This document shows positions 23,649-30,047 of a stretch of DNA of 30,047 nucleotides, one piece after another (positions within the stretch are counted from its first letter, which is position 1; every line of letters starts with the position of its first letter). Source of the stretch: a virus; the IMG/VR virus record IMGVR_UViG_3300025806_000133, positions 1-30,047 of that record. One strand, written 5' to 3'. The notes under the pieces were generated by a model. The model worked only from the letters and a program-made list of their open reading frames with translations. It did no database searches and was not told where the DNA came from. The translations under genes and the position numbers were made by a program.

Positions 23649-24308
23649 TTAATATTCTGTTAATAATCTTAAAATATCATTTAAAGATTCATGTCTATGA
23701 TTATCTTTTAATACAACATCGTAAACCCATTTTGAACCTTTTAATTTAGGAACTTCATGTATTGCTGAATCATTCCTAAATTTTAAATCAATTTGTTGTG
23801 GGTCACCACATAATATCATAGTAGAGCCTTTACCGACACGACCCAACACCATAAGAAGTTGTTGTTTAGTTAGATTTTGAAACTCATCTACTATAACTAT
23901 GGAGTTATCAAATGTTCTTCCTCTAAAGTGTGTTAATGATACTAATTCTATTTGCTCATCTACCATCATTTTATCTAAAATAGCTGGTTTGTTATAAACT
24001 TTTCTCATATTAGATTTGATTGGTACTAACCAAGGCTCCATCTTTTCATCTAATGAGCCAGGTAGAAACCCATTGTCCTCATTTGATACAGTTGGTCTTG
24101 TTATAACTATTTTATTAACTTGTCTTTTAAAAAACATATCCAATCCAACTTGACATGCTAATAAAGTTTTACCACTACCCGCCTGGCCTATGATAAAATT
24201 AAACGGATGATTGAGTATTTCTCCTTTTGATGTTTTTTGTTCATCTGATAGTGAAATTGTAAATTTAATGTTTCCTTTAGGTGGTTTTCTTTCTACGTTC
24301 TCTGGCAT
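23649..24308 (-). CDS. phoH: PhoH-like ATPase
   Basis: The 219-residue protein has Walker A GQAGSGKT (41-48), ITRPTV and a LPG loop after it, Walker B IVIVDEFQN (137-145) and a GDPQQID sensor-like motif (168-174). These are the standard PhoH features. PhoH proteins are ATPases of uncertain role, linked with phosphate starvation or RNA metabolism in bacteria, and are frequent in marine T4-like phages. Its placement between capsid and fibre genes, with its own TATTTAT motif and AGGA site, suggests late expression. It lacks the extra N-terminal domains of longer PhoH2 proteins. Confidence 0.92.
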   Translation of the reverse strand: MPENVERKPPKGNIKFTISLSDEQKTSKGEILNHPFNFIIGQAGSGKTLLACQVGLDMFFKRQVNKIVITRPTVSNEDNGFLPGSLDEKMEPWLVPIKSNMRKVYNKPAILDKMMVDEQIELVSLTHFRGRTFDNSIVIVDEFQNLTKQQLLMVLGRVGKGSTMILCGDPQQIDLKFRNDSAIHEVPKLKGSKWVYDVVLKDNHRHESLNDILRLLTEY

Positions 24309-24439: not shown

Positions 24440-26074
24440 TTACTGAATTTTGTGTAATCCATCTACATAAACCTTACCGTAGAATTCCCCTCTCAACATT
24501 TTCTTCGCGTAACGTGTCATAACGCCCTTACGAGGAGTGAAGTTTTTAGGGTCATATACCAATGGAGTCATAATCAATGGAATGTATGGACTGTAAACAG
24601 CACCAGTTTCAAGGAATTGTGTTCCTCTATATCCCATTAGGATTACGTTCTCTTTCATATAAGGATTCTTATATACTTGGAATCTACTGTTCAATGAACC
24701 AATTTTAGTTACACCGAATGCAAATTGAGCATCACCGTTATCTGCTGTTGAAGCATATCCTGGGATAGATTCAATAATTGTTGCAACATCAGGAGATACT
24801 ACCATAAAGTTAGCTCCACCTCTTAATGTTTTTTGGTGAATCTTGTTAGATACACCAGCAACTACAGTACCAAGTGTTTGAAACCATGCACCTTGTGTAA
24901 ATGCAGAAGCAGCTGCTCCAGTTGTAGAATAGTCAGCAAATGCGTTTCCATTCCATTCTCTACCTACTTGTGTAGACCAGTAACCAGTACTCTTAGCATC
25001 TTGAATCAACATATCTAAGATTTCAAAATCAATCTCTTGTGAGATATATTCTGACAACATAGAAGTTAATTCAGCTTCAGCATCGATTGAATGATAAGCG
25101 TTCAAATCTTGTGCGAATTCCGGAGTCCATTGTGCTTTCAACTTACGTGTCTTAGCAACAATTGGTAAACTCTTCATTTCAACATTCAATTCTGGAATAT
25201 CGATATCAACTTCAGGATTAGCAGTTAATGAAGTTCCAGTTGCTTCGAAATCACCTCTTGATGTATCAGTTGGTTGTTTGTGATACTTAACTACAAGTGT
25301 ACTAGCATCTAAAGCACCTTTTGCAACAAATACGATATCTCCGCCATTTGCTACAGTAAACTGTGGATATTGGTCTGTAATTTCAGCACCTTCTACTCTA
25401 AATCCTCTGATTCCTTTATCATCATATCCAGAGATAGATGCTGTTGGTACAGCGATTTTGTAAATAAGTCCACTAACGATATCAGCACCATTAGATGAAG
25501 TAAACTGAGTATCATAATTTACGTCTGCAAGTGATACAGATGAAGTTACGAATTTGTTTGCTCCAGCAGTACCCAATGTTTGAGTTGCAGATGTTGCATC
25601 GTTGATTGAGTATCCAAATCTACCTGCACCGTACAAACCACCTGATGGGTCTGAAGTAGTATCAGTTACACCGAATACAGAATCAGTTTGTGAATCTTTA
25701 CCACTACCTGTTGCAAATCCAGTTTGACCTGTTCCATATTTGAAATCTAGATAAAATACTAGACCCGATGGTAAGTTCATTGGTTGTACAGATACGAAAT
25801 CTTTTGCTACGATTTCAGAAAAGATACGTCTTACTAATGGTAGAGCTACACCAGCCCACTCTTCTGAATTTGCAGAAGTACCAGTAGCAGAAGCTTCTTT
25901 TACTAATTGTCGTGCTTGGTTTTCTAAAAGTGTTGCAACACCAGCTTTTTCAACTTCGTTGTCAATTCCTTCTAAAAGACCAGTTTTTTCCCATTTCCCT
26001 GCCAAAGCTCTTGTAGCTTCAGACAATCTAGCGGTATGAGAAGAACCTTCATTAAGGATGTTTTTTAAATCCAT
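24440..26074 (-). CDS. gp23: Major capsid protein (gp23-like)
   Basis: This 544-residue protein is close in length to T4 gp23 (521). It opens MDLKNILNEGSS, followed by a helical region with TLLENQARQLVKEAS. It has the hallmark EEWAGVALPLVRRIFSEIVAKDFVSVQPM and later LPIVAKTRKLKAQWTPEFAQDLNAYHSIDAEAELTSML and GYRGTQFLETGAVYSPYIPL, all typical of gp23. In T4 the N-terminal 65 residues are removed by the prohead protease. The start AATAGGAGAAAAAAAATG is strong. No TATTTAT motif precedes it, so it is probably read from the promoter before the scaffold gene. Confidence 0.95.
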   Translation of the reverse strand: MDLKNILNEGSSHTARLSEATRALAGKWEKTGLLEGIDNEVEKAGVATLLENQARQLVKEASATGTSANSEEWAGVALPLVRRIFSEIVAKDFVSVQPMNLPSGLVFYLDFKYGTGQTGFATGSGKDSQTDSVFGVTDTTSDPSGGLYGAGRFGYSINDATSATQTLGTAGANKFVTSSVSLADVNYDTQFTSSNGADIVSGLIYKIAVPTASISGYDDKGIRGFRVEGAEITDQYPQFTVANGGDIVFVAKGALDASTLVVKYHKQPTDTSRGDFEATGTSLTANPEVDIDIPELNVEMKSLPIVAKTRKLKAQWTPEFAQDLNAYHSIDAEAELTSMLSEYISQEIDFEILDMLIQDAKSTGYWSTQVGREWNGNAFADYSTTGAAASAFTQGAWFQTLGTVVAGVSNKIHQKTLRGGANFMVVSPDVATIIESIPGYASTADNGDAQFAFGVTKIGSLNSRFQVYKNPYMKENVILMGYRGTQFLETGAVYSPYIPLIMTPLVYDPKNFTPRKGVMTRYAKKMLRGEFYGKVYVDGLHKIQ

Positions 26075-26101: not shown

Positions 26102-27052
26102 TTATTTTAAACCAGCAAGTTTTTTCCATCTTGCTGCCATTTCGTTACCTTCAGAAATTATTTTCTTTGGTGCAGAACTTTTTGTTGCTTTAGAAGCATA
26201 ACCTTCTTTAACAACAACTTTTGTTTTCTTAGCTACGTTAAGATTTTCAGCTAATGTTGAAAATACTAACTTAACTTCACGTACTGAAGATGTTCTATCA
26301 AAGTTTTCAAGAACTTTTACTTTTTGTCCTTCATTAAGGTCAAATGTTCTGAATAATTTGTTAGTGTAAAGTAACTTAGCGTTTAAAAGATTTACTTCAT
26401 TAATTGTACCTCTTAGAGATTCAATTGTTCTGTAAGCTTCTTCTAATTCTTCAGTTGAATCTTCTTCTTCGTCCATGTCTTCTTCAGCTTCAGTCATCGC
26501 TTCTTCTTCGTCATGTTCCATTTCTTTCAATGTTCTGATAACTTCATCCAAATCGATTTCTTCTTCTTCTTCAGATACTTCCATATCTTCTTCTTCAGAT
26601 ACTTCCATATCTTCTTCTTCAGAATCCATATCTTCTTCTTCGTCCATTTCAGCTTCCAATTCAGCGATTATAGATTCTAAATCTAAATCATCCTCATCCG
26701 CGTCCATGTCTTCTTCTTCAGATACTTCCATATCTTCTTCTTCAGAATCATCAGAATCTAAGTCCATTTCCATTTCTTCTTCTTCAGAATCCATTTCCAT
26801 TTCGTCTTCTTCGTCCATGTCTTCTTCTTCAGATACTTCTTCTTCTTCGTGATAGCTTTCTTCAGTCTCTTCACCTTCGTAAGTTTCGTCTACCTCTTCA
26901 TCATCAGCTTCTTCAGCTAACTTTGCAGAAATCATAGATTGCAACTTTGGAGTGAATGCCTCTTCTAAAGCCAATTTAGCGTTTGCCATTGCAGTTTCTT
27001 TAACGGCTTTAGCATCAGCAATTGCTTCTGATAACAAGTCTTTTCTTGCCAT
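26102..27052 (-). CDS. gp22: Prohead scaffold protein (gp22-like), very acidic
   Basis: The 316-residue protein lies directly before gp23, as gene 22 does in T4. It has a helical start (residues 1-46, DAKAVKETAMANAKLALEEAF) and an acidic block at about 46-207 made of SEEEDME- and EEDMD-type repeats. A helical C-terminal part follows, with NLLNAKLLYTNKLFR, QKVKVLENFDRTSSVREVKLVFSTLAENL and a final AARWKKLAGLK. The C-terminal part is like other marine T4-type gp22 proteins. It would form the internal core on which the capsid assembles and then be degraded by the prohead protease. AAGGAGA precedes the ATG. Confidence 0.8.
   Translation of the reverse strand: MARKDLLSEAIADAKAVKETAMANAKLALEEAFTPKLQSMISAKLAEEADDEEVDETYEGEETEESYHEEEEVSEEEDMDEEDEMEMDSEEEEMEMDLDSDDSEEEDMEVSEEEDMDADEDDLDLESIIAELEAEMDEEEDMDSEEEDMEVSEEEDMEVSEEEEEIDLDEVIRTLKEMEHDEEEAMTEAEEDMDEEEDSTEELEEAYRTIESLRGTINEVNLLNAKLLYTNKLFRTFDLNEGQKVKVLENFDRTSSVREVKLVFSTLAENLNVAKKTKVVVKEGYASKATKSSAPKKIISEGNEMAARWKKLAGLK
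26432..26917 (-). repeat. Acidic low-complexity repeats in the scaffold gene
   Basis: Imperfect repeats encode blocks such as DMEVSEEEDME and DSEEEEMEMD. At the DNA level the GATATGGAAGTATCTGAAGA type unit recurs several times, including two direct neighbours near 26570-26620. Confidence 0.8.
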
Positions 27053-27201: not shown

Positions 27202-27459
27202 CTAAATTTCAGTCTGTCTACGCATCCATTCAGAGTATTTAGCGTTTTTCATTTTCTCTCTGTTAATCACAGATGGTTTGCGGAATTCTTTTCGGTCTCT
27301 GACTTCTTCCATCTTACCACTATCTTTGATTTTTCTTTTGAAAGCTTTGAGTGCTAACTCTATGTTACCATTCACAACTTTTACTGCTAATGGATTACCA
27401 GGTATTTCCATATCGTCTCTATTTATTCGTTTGTAAGGTTTTTTGTTTTGCTCTTGCAT
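27202..27459 (-). CDS. rpsU: Phage-encoded bS21-like ribosomal protein
   Basis: Residues 22-75 fit bacterial ribosomal protein bS21: NPLAVKVVNGNIELALKAFKR, then KIKDSGKMEEVRDRKEFRKPS and a basic helix with INREKMKNAKYSEWMRR. Key shared points are the V.V....E.AL..FKR start, E.R.R..F.KPS, and the basic tail. At 85 residues it is a little longer than E. coli bS21 (71), with an N-terminal extension. bS21 sits beside the anti-Shine-Dalgarno end of 16S rRNA and affects initiation. Phage copies are known from marine phages. It lies between head genes and has no Shine-Dalgarno sequence of its own. Host or phage origin cannot be judged by eye. Confidence 0.8.
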   Translation of the reverse strand: MQEQNKKPYKRINRDDMEIPGNPLAVKVVNGNIELALKAFKRKIKDSGKMEEVRDRKEFRKPSVINREKMKNAKYSEWMRRQTEI

Positions 27460-27546: not shown

Positions 27547-27744
27547 TTAAAGTTTCTTTTTTAATTCGTTAATGAATGGTATATAGTTGTGCTTACCATA
27601 CTCATCTTTTAAAACTTTAGCTACTGCGTGAGCAAAATCAACATAGGACATACTATCATCAATCTTTAAAATTGATTTATTAATATCCTTCGATAATTTA
27701 TCTGACTCTACAGATTCGTTAAGTATATCTTTAAGTTTTATCAT
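27547..27744 (-). CDS. Small head-module protein with a capsid-targeting-like start (65 aa)
   Basis: It begins MIKLKDILNESVESD, almost the same as an internal segment of the large modular protein (MIKLKDLMNES) and like the start of gp23 (MDLKNILNEGS). In T4, internal head proteins carry a short targeting sequence, cut by the prohead protease after Glu in an (L/I)-x-E motif. The remaining 50 residues are polar and helical. An internal head protein is proposed. It begins two bases after the 167-residue gene, with no ribosome site. Confidence 0.55.
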   Translation of the reverse strand: MIKLKDILNESVESDKLSKDINKSILKIDDSMSYVDFAHAVAKVLKDEYGKHNYIPFINELKKKL

Positions 27745-27745
27745 T

Positions 27746-28249
27746 TTATTTAACAGTTAATGAACTGTATTTTTTATAAAGTTTTACTAATGTATCTCTT
27801 AACTCTCTTGTAAATTTCACTTTGTTAGGATTTAAAGATACGTTGTTATCACCTAATAGTGGTAAGAGTCCTGATTTTTGGATTCTATCACCTACTAACT
27901 TATCATTCACAAATGCAATCTTTGCTTCGTTTACTGATTCATTTAAGTTTTTCTTTAAGAATGCTGTTAAGTCTTTATGAATTTTTTGTGAATCTGATGC
28001 CTTTATTACACCACGTTCTTCTAAAAAATTTAATATCCTATTACTAATAACTACCTCTTTAACAGCTTCAGTAACTACTGATTCGTATGTTCCTTCTGAT
28101 AAATCATCTATGCCTTGCTTCATATCTCCAAATAGGTTTCCAAATTGTTTTTGTTGTTTGGAATCTAATTTTTTAATATTCTTTAGATGTTTCTTTACCA
28201 TAGAAGATAAGTCAACTGAAATGTCTTGTAATATATCTGAGTAATCCAT
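27746..28249 (-). CDS. Head-module protein with NE-type sites (167 aa)
   Basis: The protein is mostly helical and basic toward the end. A central segment at about 99-110 reads KKNLNESVNEAK, giving two candidate Glu cleavage sites (LNE-S and VNE-A) that match those in the neighbouring modular protein. AAAGGAT, lying in the stop region of the upstream gene, precedes the ATG. I do not recognise the two halves. Being between the modular protein and the capsid genes, it may be an internal or scaffold protein processed in the prohead. Confidence 0.5.
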   Translation of the reverse strand: MDYSDILQDISVDLSSMVKKHLKNIKKLDSKQQKQFGNLFGDMKQGIDDLSEGTYESVVTEAVKEVVISNRILNFLEERGVIKASDSQKIHKDLTAFLKKNLNESVNEAKIAFVNDKLVGDRIQKSGLLPLLGDNNVSLNPNKVKFTRELRDTLVKLYKKYSSLTVK

Positions 28250-28254
28250 TGTGG

Positions 28255-30047
28255 TTATCCTTTTATAATATTAGCCAATTTCTTAAATCTTTTTTTAGTT
28301 TCATTAACTGATTCTAAAGTCATTCTATCATCAAATAATTTGGACAGTTTCTTTTTCAAAGGTGTTATTTCCTCAATGTCGCGAATATGGTGCAACTTTG
28401 CTATATCTGAAACTAAAGTCTCTGCTGTCTTTAAATCCTTTCCTTTTAAATAAGGGAATATATCAGATTCTGCATAGTCTGATACGTCTTTTGGGTTCAT
28501 TCGTTTGAGTTCATCTTTCATGTCTGCAATCTGCATATCTGTATTGTCATCTCTCACAGGCTCATCTTCTGCATCTGATGTTCCTCTCTCTGCGTTATCT
28601 CTCGCTTTTGTTGTCTGACCAGAATAGGTTGGGTCGCCATCATCAAATGATTTTGGTTTCGATACCGAACCCCGTTGTGGTTCGTCTTTTGCATCTGCTT
28701 TTGCTTTTGATATCTCTTTTTCAGATGGTGGTTCATGCTTAGATGGGTCAGCGTTTTTTACTGCGTAAGTATTTCCGGTCTTTTTATTTTTAACATAAAC
28801 ATCTTCGTTTGCAGATTCATCTTCTTCAGATTCATTTATATTATTACTACCAACTGATGCTAACATATCTTTAGCTGATACTTTCATCTTCATTAACTTT
28901 GATGATGGTAGTTCACCAAATCCAAATGATTCGTTCATTAAGTCTTTTAATTTTATCATTGTGTTTCCTTCGTTTGTGATTTCTATCATTTTCTTAGCTT
29001 CGGCTTCGATTTCTTTTTTGATGTTGGATGGTACTTTTTTATCTAAGTATTTTACTTTACCTTTGTTATCAATGTGGGCTACGTTTTTGTAATCACCATT
29101 TTCTTCTTCGGCTTTGTTATAAATAGTTAATCCGTTTCCTTTACGAGCCATTCCGATATCGTACTTTGCTTCGTTAACTACTGATTCATCAACTGCTGGT
29201 TTGATTGCCAACATACCAACTTTTGATTTAGGTACTTTTAGTTTTTTGATTGCTAATAGTTTTGCGTTGTAAAGGTCTTTAGCTTCAGATTTTTTGATTT
29301 CTAATTTATTACCTTTATGGTCAATTGCAATCCATCCAGCCATACCTTCGTTTACTGTTGATTCACTCATGCTTATTATTGCTTTTTTCTTTTTAAGCAT
29401 TAATTTAAGAAATAAGTCTACCAATTTACCATTCTTATCATCAGTCATACGATGTGGTCTACCAACAAAATCTTGTCCGATACCATCCATCTTACCTGAA
29501 CGTTGAAATTTAATAGTTCCTGATTTTGATTTAATTGCAAAGTCACCCATACCTAAATGTACGAGTTCTGAATTTGGTAATACACCTTTACTATAGTTTA
29601 CAAAGTTACTATCTACGATTGTTTGGTTTCCAACTCTTTCGTAGTGTCCAACATCCTTACCTTCTTTTAACATATCAGTAAGTTTCATTGATTCTTTAAT
29701 ACCAAGTTTCTTTTTAACTTTTGCTACAGCTGATTTAACTGAATCCATACCAGTCAACGAAACGATTTTCTTATCATTGTGATACACATCCCTACCAACA
29801 ATATAAAACATACCAGGAAGTTTGTCAGTCAATTGAGCAAAGTGAAGATTGAACACATTACTCATCTTTGATTGTGGATAGTTAAATTCTTTTAATGATT
29901 CACTTGCGAACTTTTCAGCATTCTCTTTATCTTCTTTATCAACATTAGTAACTTTGTAAGTTTTCCCATCCACTTCAAATTCGCTATCACCATTTGCGAT
30001 TGCTTTTGCTCTTGCTGCACCAAATTCGTTACCTTCTTCAATTTCAC
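28255..30047 (-). CDS. Modular head-associated polyprotein, 5' end beyond the window
   Basis: The frame stays open to the window edge: 25 further codons precede the GTG at 29973, so the true start lies outside. Numbering from that GTG, short domains are separated by Glu sites: LKE104-G, VNE209-G, VNE268-A, TNE335-G, MNE348-S, INE381-S, VNE558-T. The modules include a GKTYKV domain at the start, a GWIAIDHKGNKLEI domain (211-262), a YDIGMARKGNGLTIY domain (271-330) and a disordered acidic/basic linker (382-480). Each resembles, from memory, modules found in various orders in marine phages. The protein lies just upstream of the scaffold and capsid genes, so internal head proteins cut by a gp21-type protease are the likeliest identity. 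gp21 itself is not in view. Confidence 0.5.
   Translation of the reverse strand, partial: EIEEGNEFGAARAKAIANGDSEFEVDGKTYKVTNVDKEDKENAEKFASESLKEFNYPQSKMSNVFNLHFAQLTDKLPGMFYIVGRDVYHNDKKIVSLTGMDSVKSAVAKVKKKLGIKESMKLTDMLKEGKDVGHYERVGNQTIVDSNFVNYSKGVLPNSELVHLGMGDFAIKSKSGTIKFQRSGKMDGIGQDFVGRPHRMTDDKNGKLVDLFLKLMLKKKKAIISMSESTVNEGMAGWIAIDHKGNKLEIKKSEAKDLYNAKLLAIKKLKVPKSKVGMLAIKPAVDESVVNEAKYDIGMARKGNGLTIYNKAEEENGDYKNVAHIDNKGKVKYLDKKVPSNIKKEIEAEAKKMIEITNEGNTMIKLKDLMNESFGFGELPSSKLMKMKVSAKDMLASVGSNNINESEEDESANEDVYVKNKKTGNTYAVKNADPSKHEPPSEKEISKAKADAKDEPQRGSVSKPKSFDDGDPTYSGQTTKARDNAERGTSDAEDEPVRDDNTDMQIADMKDELKRMNPKDVSDYAESDIFPYLKGKDLKTAETLVSDIAKLHHIRDIEEITPLKKKLSKLFDDRMTLESVNETKKRFKKLANIIKG

Follow-up and report, generated by a model that had tools for sequence, protein, structure and literature searches.

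In T4, the internal proteins are basic, are injected and block restriction enzymes (PMC12373910). The first ten residues of the T4 capsid-targeting sequence are enough for packaging, and cleavage by the prohead protease gp21 follows the rule L/I-x-E (PMC9026906); gp21 is thought to cut itself as well (PMC5694885). In the giant phages phiKZ and SPN3US, the prohead protease cuts the propeptides of head and ejection proteins after Glu within a short motif, sometimes at several sites, and the cargo is ejected (PMC5694885, PMC7411985).

The window analyzed here, a stretch of 30,047 bases that makes up an entire IMG/VR record, comes from a phage classed as far-T4-type, whose gp23 shares 61% identity with the gp23 of Microcystis phage Mel-JY01 and 55% with the gp23 of Flavobacterium phage immuto. 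The gene of interest, referred to as the array gene, is cut by the right end of the window; contig L002, identical to the window except for one mismatch over an overlap of 9,790 bases, extends past this point and carries the complete gene. It encodes 746 amino acids, begins with MKKLKDLLNE/T (a slash follows the Glu of each motif) and follows a gp21-type prohead protease gene at a distance of 9 bases. A preliminary description of the window had numbered the protein from GTG 29973; this is not the start, since on L002 the gene begins beyond the window end. The order of genes on L002 is terminase, gp20 portal, a 282-aa gene, a 162-aa gene, a 44-codon frame, the gp21-type protease, the 746-aa array gene, a 167-aa gene, a 65-aa gene, a bS21-like gene, an acidic scaffold-like gene and gp23. 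This is the gp20-gp21-gp22-gp23 order of a T4-type head module (Pfam Portal_T4, 7e-72; S77, 1.7e-34; Gp23, 2e-77), in which the scaffold-like gene would be gp22, to judge from its position and composition. The array gene thus lies within the head module, as the preliminary description had supposed, and the gp21 homologue it had proposed to look for to the right of the window is the gene directly upstream. This Peptidase_S77 protein also matches a solved T4-type prohead protease (PDB 5jbl, 2e-20), and near its own ends it has INE/S and PxNE/SV (NESVINEG in some relatives), of the same type as the joints of the array described below. In gp23, a [VIL]xE/A site (VKE60) is kept in 71 of 72 relatives, near the T4 gp23 cut position in an N-terminal alignment.

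Other genes were noted in and around this region. A ribosomal protein S21 homologue (27202-27459, minus strand; Pfam Ribosomal_S21, 3.8e-10) separates the array genes from the scaffold gene, and most relatives have a similar gene at this place. A PhoH-like gene (23649-24308, minus strand; Pfam, 2.6e-49) adjoins the capsid gene on the side opposite the array. One relative has a 452-aa DNA methyltransferase-like frame with a TCPPYHDLE-type motif between the array genes and the S21 gene (L020, 9638-10996, plus strand), and another has about ten additional frames between gp21 and gp23 (L098, 3035-7738), where the gap is 6.9 kb. Frames with core or module sequences also occur at L031 6675-8513 and L030 7722-9092, with no gp21 or gp23 of this clade detected on the available stretch. 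A search for the host gave a single 8.6-kb contig in a Pelagibacter MAG, which is too weak for a host assignment.

Table 1. Features of the array gene and adjoining head genes in the window
Feature	Positions	Strand	Basis or remarks
Cassette-array gene, 3' part (residues 151-746 of 746)	28255-30047	-	Open frame; full gene at L002 7479-9719
End of conserved core module EEGNEFGAARAKAIANGDSEFEVDGK..., residues 151-203	29887-30045	-	Alignment A3, near-invariant EGNEFG; pLDDT about 70
Module, residues 204-269	29689-29886	-	Net charge about +6 counting following CTS; pLDDT 52-65
Internal targeting-like MKLTDMLKE/, residues 270-278	29662-29688	-	CTS pattern scan
Module M9, residues 279-383, ends in linker ESTVNE/ (29347-29364)	29347-29661	-	10 loci, varied contexts; folded in model, linker disordered
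Module M12, residues 384-442, ends in linker ESVVNE/ (29170-29187)	29170-29346	-	Segment comparison and model
Module M3, residues 443-509, ends EITNE/	28969-29169	-	19 loci; folded in model
Possible internal start: SD-like AAGGA (28966-28970), 6 nt, in-frame ATG (28957-28959)	28957-28970	-	
Internal targeting-like MIKLKDLMNE/, residues 513-522	28930-28959	-	Direct repeat with start of gene 27547-27744
Short module M10, residues 523-555, ends INE/	28831-28929	-	10 loci
Acidic C-terminal region DVYVKNKKTG..., residues 565-732, ends ESVNE/	28300-28803	-	Relatives' arrays and charge
167-aa gene MDYSDILQD..., small array with LNE104/S and VNE108/A	27746-28249	-	C-terminal modules differ among relatives
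65-aa gene, N-terminal targeting-like MIKLKDILNE/S and module M17	27547-27744	-	M17 belongs to another protein in L003
gp22-like scaffold candidate	26102-27052	-	Very acidic, net charge -85; start MARKDLLSE/A; precedes gp23; family search without match
Major capsid protein gp23	24440-26074	-	Pfam Gp23, 2.3e-77; start MDLKNILNE/G

The preliminary description had listed six xNE sites followed by Gly, Ala, Ser or Thr at residues 209, 268, 335, 348, 381 and 558, counted from GTG 29973. These are exact, the next residues being G, A, G, S, S and T; its LKE104/G is the end of MKLTDMLKE/G, and the paired LNE-S and VNE-A sites of the next gene were also found. Within the window part of the array, [LIVMT]NE[GAST] occurs 6 times against 0.18 expected from shuffling (p 0.0005), and in the full 746 residues 9 times against 0.3. 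The head genes of the window (1,773 aa) together have 11 such sites where shuffling gives 0.5; the 27 non-head genes (7,506 aa) have none, with 2.4 expected.

Searches of family libraries placed the window array in no known family, and no Pfam domain scored above the cutoff in it or in the arrays of L010, L026 and L055. For the modules, neither sequence nor fold searches of the PDB yielded a usable match, and tblastn of the window array against cultured phages gave none. The sole BFVD match at E < 0.001 was to a free-standing, uncharacterised phage protein of Tenacibaculum phage pT24. The arrays of L012, L020 and L026 match the core of Microcystis phage Mel-JY01, together with scattered small modules in cyanophages and others.

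Loci were collected with the array, gp23 and the core as queries. The carriers of the array are a group of uncultured marine T4-like phages. Judged by sequence comparison, the gene is a cassette array consisting of a conserved acidic core and interchangeable modules, which are about 40-110 aa long and mostly basic. The arrays of relatives differ in module order and number and range from 190 to 1001 aa; among the 89 distinct core-bearing frames, the shortest, of 121 aa, consist of the core alone and are found in outgroup phages, and the longest has 1,001 aa. What separates the modules is either an ES(V)VNE/[GAS] linker or an internal MKLxDLLNE/ sequence similar to the T4 capsid-targeting sequences. 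Ten arrays have module M4 at the N-terminus and four have it at the C-terminus, M9 is preceded by eight different segments, and M17 forms a targeted gene of its own in L002 and a portion of a different protein in L003. M9 shares 89% identity between L002 and L017, against 58% for their gp21 proteins, which suggests exchange. As the preliminary description had anticipated, module boundaries coincide with NE sites across relatives: 262 homology ends fall within 2 residues of an NE, against 129 +/- 11 by rotation. Among 42 common dipeptides compared, those most enriched at homology ends were VN, NE, ES, SV, MK and SF, which belong to the linker and the targeting motif. Such breakpoint statistics may be inflated, since conserved linkers attract and draw out the ends of local alignments.

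In all, 193 segment families were recognized in 140 arrays, and 140 of these families are singletons, so that module diversity looks open-ended. Most cargo families have a net charge of +2 to +7.5, while the core is acidic; the acidic C-terminal region of the window array is an exception among the otherwise small, basic cargo, which varies from relative to relative. Some modules are related to the free-standing small phage families PHROG 1987, 7595 and 27331, which fits the capture of whole small proteins. A second cassette array with the same linkers and shared modules was found upstream of terminase in L277 (105-2696, 864 aa) and L200 (361-1986, 542 aa). In a cultured Flavobacterium phage, immuto26A_194 (L118, 2736-3737), also upstream of terminase, starts with MADNFNLRSFLTEN and has two [LIVMT]NE[GAST] sites; it is annotated as a cobalamin adenosyltransferase, yet has no Pfam match, and offers a culturable test case.

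The linker is conserved at the DNA level as the 16-mer GAATCAGTAAACGAAG, which was found in at least 119 viral stretches, against 24 in all for the reversed 16-mer control. Among the matches listed (80 loci), 115 of 119 copies lie in an open frame reading ESVNE. All 34 spacings between neighboring copies among these matches are multiples of three, which follows from the shared reading frame and is therefore no independent evidence. Codon use in the linker differs from that in the rest of the arrays for Ser TCA (0.79 vs 0.47, p 6e-5), Val GTA (0.79 vs 0.48) and Asn AAC (0.79 vs 0.43, p 3e-5). In eleven larger phage records, the linker pattern was confined to one strand per record, with no match to the control pattern, and the matches that could be placed lay in the head array or in the second, module-sharing array upstream of terminase. 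This conservation of the linker DNA may well be due to recombination.

An AlphaFold model of residues 279-509 (window 28969-29661), based on a 20-row alignment, has three folded domains for the three modules (mean pLDDT 78.9); pLDDT falls below 50 only in the two NE linkers, at model positions 97-105 and 159-164. In this model, then, the modules are folded and the linkers disordered. The full-length model is weak (mean pLDDT 50.5), and alignments A1, A4 and A5 were left out of folding because MAFFT had misplaced the short module rows. The view that NE sites fall between compact modules is upheld for the well-modelled sites, but MNE108 (746-aa numbering, outside the window) is placed by the weak full-length model inside a long helix of the core, so that a motif match by itself does not define a cut site. 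That every xNE is a cut site is ruled out by MNE108 and by an NE inside a phrog_1987-like module.

Besides the targeting-like sequence at its start, the array has two internal copies, MKLTDMLKE/G and MIKLKDLMNE/S. Starts of this type are also seen in other head genes (the 65-aa gene, gp23 and the scaffold-like gene; Table 1). Eight phage records (1.17 Mb) were scanned for a degenerate targeting DNA pattern, allowing no more than 2 mismatches; matches were almost exclusively in head regions, and the reversed control gave none in the same records. The likeness to the T4 sequences, which also end in (L/I)xE, concerns the type of motif and need not mean homology.

From these results, the array is probably a polyprotein of head-internal proteins that is cut by the prohead protease and whose modules are exchanged in frame at the linkers. 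The polyprotein would be drawn into the prohead core by the T4-like targeting sequences, both N-terminal and internal, and the gp21-type protease encoded next door would then cut after Glu at the ES(V)VNE/ and LLNE/ linkers, as their motif and context suggest. After cutting, the head would contain fragments of the core together with several small folded proteins, most of them basic. Some of these proteins would probably be injected with the DNA, like T4 internal proteins; injection and a counter-defense role are speculative. New modules would enter through in-frame recombination at linkers with conserved DNA. Of the polyprotein put forward in the preliminary description, the module array stands, but the gene is longer, has N-terminal and internal targeting sequences, and is a recombining cassette array instead of a fixed polyprotein.

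One alternative is that the array is a consumable scaffold, all of whose fragments leave the head after cutting, so that it would act on head assembly as a core or spacer protein and bring nothing into the host. In outgroup phages the core, which is acidic and helical, stands alone at the same place, and in T4, cutting of gp22, gp67 and gp68 gives many pieces, most of which do not stay in the head (PMC9026906). A spacer, however, has no need of folded, shuffled, mostly basic modules with free-standing homologues in small phage families, and we regard this explanation as unlikely. The array could also be one long, uncut head or core protein in which the NE linkers are merely flexible, recombination-prone joints. 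Recombination alone could account for the conservation of the linker DNA, and domain mosaicism is common among phage proteins (PMC10684548). Yet the joint fits the x-x-Glu rule of gp21 and agrees with the sites near both ends of the protease and with the ends of the targeting sequences, and it is nearly restricted to head genes of the module in which the protease gene lies, adjacent to the array; an uncut protein seems quite improbable.

Alternatively, internal Shine-Dalgarno sequences and ATGs may yield targeted sub-proteins from fused genes with several starts, proteolysis merely trimming the targeting sequences. Many internal targeting sequences retain a Shine-Dalgarno sequence and an ATG, as in the window (Table 1), and ribosome-site pairing is stronger at 39 internal targeting ATGs (-3.85) than at 674 other internal ATGs (-1.96; p 3e-4). 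In L061 and L067 the corresponding junction is a real stop/start overlap of two genes. From these internal starts and the L061 overlap, the arrays look like fused internal-protein genes. Most module joints (ESVNE), however, lack an ATG, and there is no ribosome site at internal targeting sequences of a second class, MKLTSMLNE. We regard nested translation as unlikely; it can coexist with the polyprotein model.

If cut as proposed, the array would be a phage polyprotein supplying a variable set of head-internal proteins, a natural design by which one gene packs several proteins into a T4-type head. The ESVNE linkers and LLNE targeting sequences would provide a rule by which many phage proteins that are uncharacterised and probably packaged in the head could be found in marine metagenomes, and would make the acquisition and swapping of internal proteins by phages directly testable. 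We suggest more tentatively that the conserved 16-base linker may be both recombination homology and prohead-protease site, and that phages may trade injected head proteins as polyprotein modules at two loci flanking the packaging genes. In the open-access papers searched, no description of an arrangement of this kind was found.

The array is best read as a T4 internal-protein system in polyprotein form, with unusual cassette exchange. It shares with T4 IPI-III and Alt (PMC9026906, PMC12373910) a short N-terminal targeting-like sequence ending in (L/I)xE, a gp21-type protease, small basic cargo, great diversity among relatives and a location in the head module. Those proteins are encoded by separate genes, each with one cargo, whereas the array has many modules in one frame, cleavage-site-like linkers and some internal targeting sequences; with several modules per reading frame, it works like a variant of T4-type internal proteins and not a plain member. 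The T4 head-core proteins gp22, gp67 and gp68 are also encoded beside gp21 and gp23, and gp21 cuts them into several peptides, as proposed for the array, but their pieces are mostly discarded, while those of the array are predicted to be folded and are exchangeable modules. The phiKZ and SPN3US propeptides are similar in their cleavage motif, but usually give one mature protein per precursor, where the array holds interchangeable candidate cargo. Polyvalent proteins such as P1 DdrB (PMC5512222) are also multi-domain and can be processed before packaging, and were compared by their authors to RNA-virus polyproteins; they have enzymatic domains and an embedded metallopeptidase domain to which the processing is ascribed, neither of which was found in the Pfam searches of the arrays, and the prohead protease is a separate gene. 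As in phage domain mosaicism generally (PMC10684548), protein fragments are shuffled among phages, but in the array a single conserved in-frame linker, which fits the head protease motif, marks the joints between the shuffled pieces.
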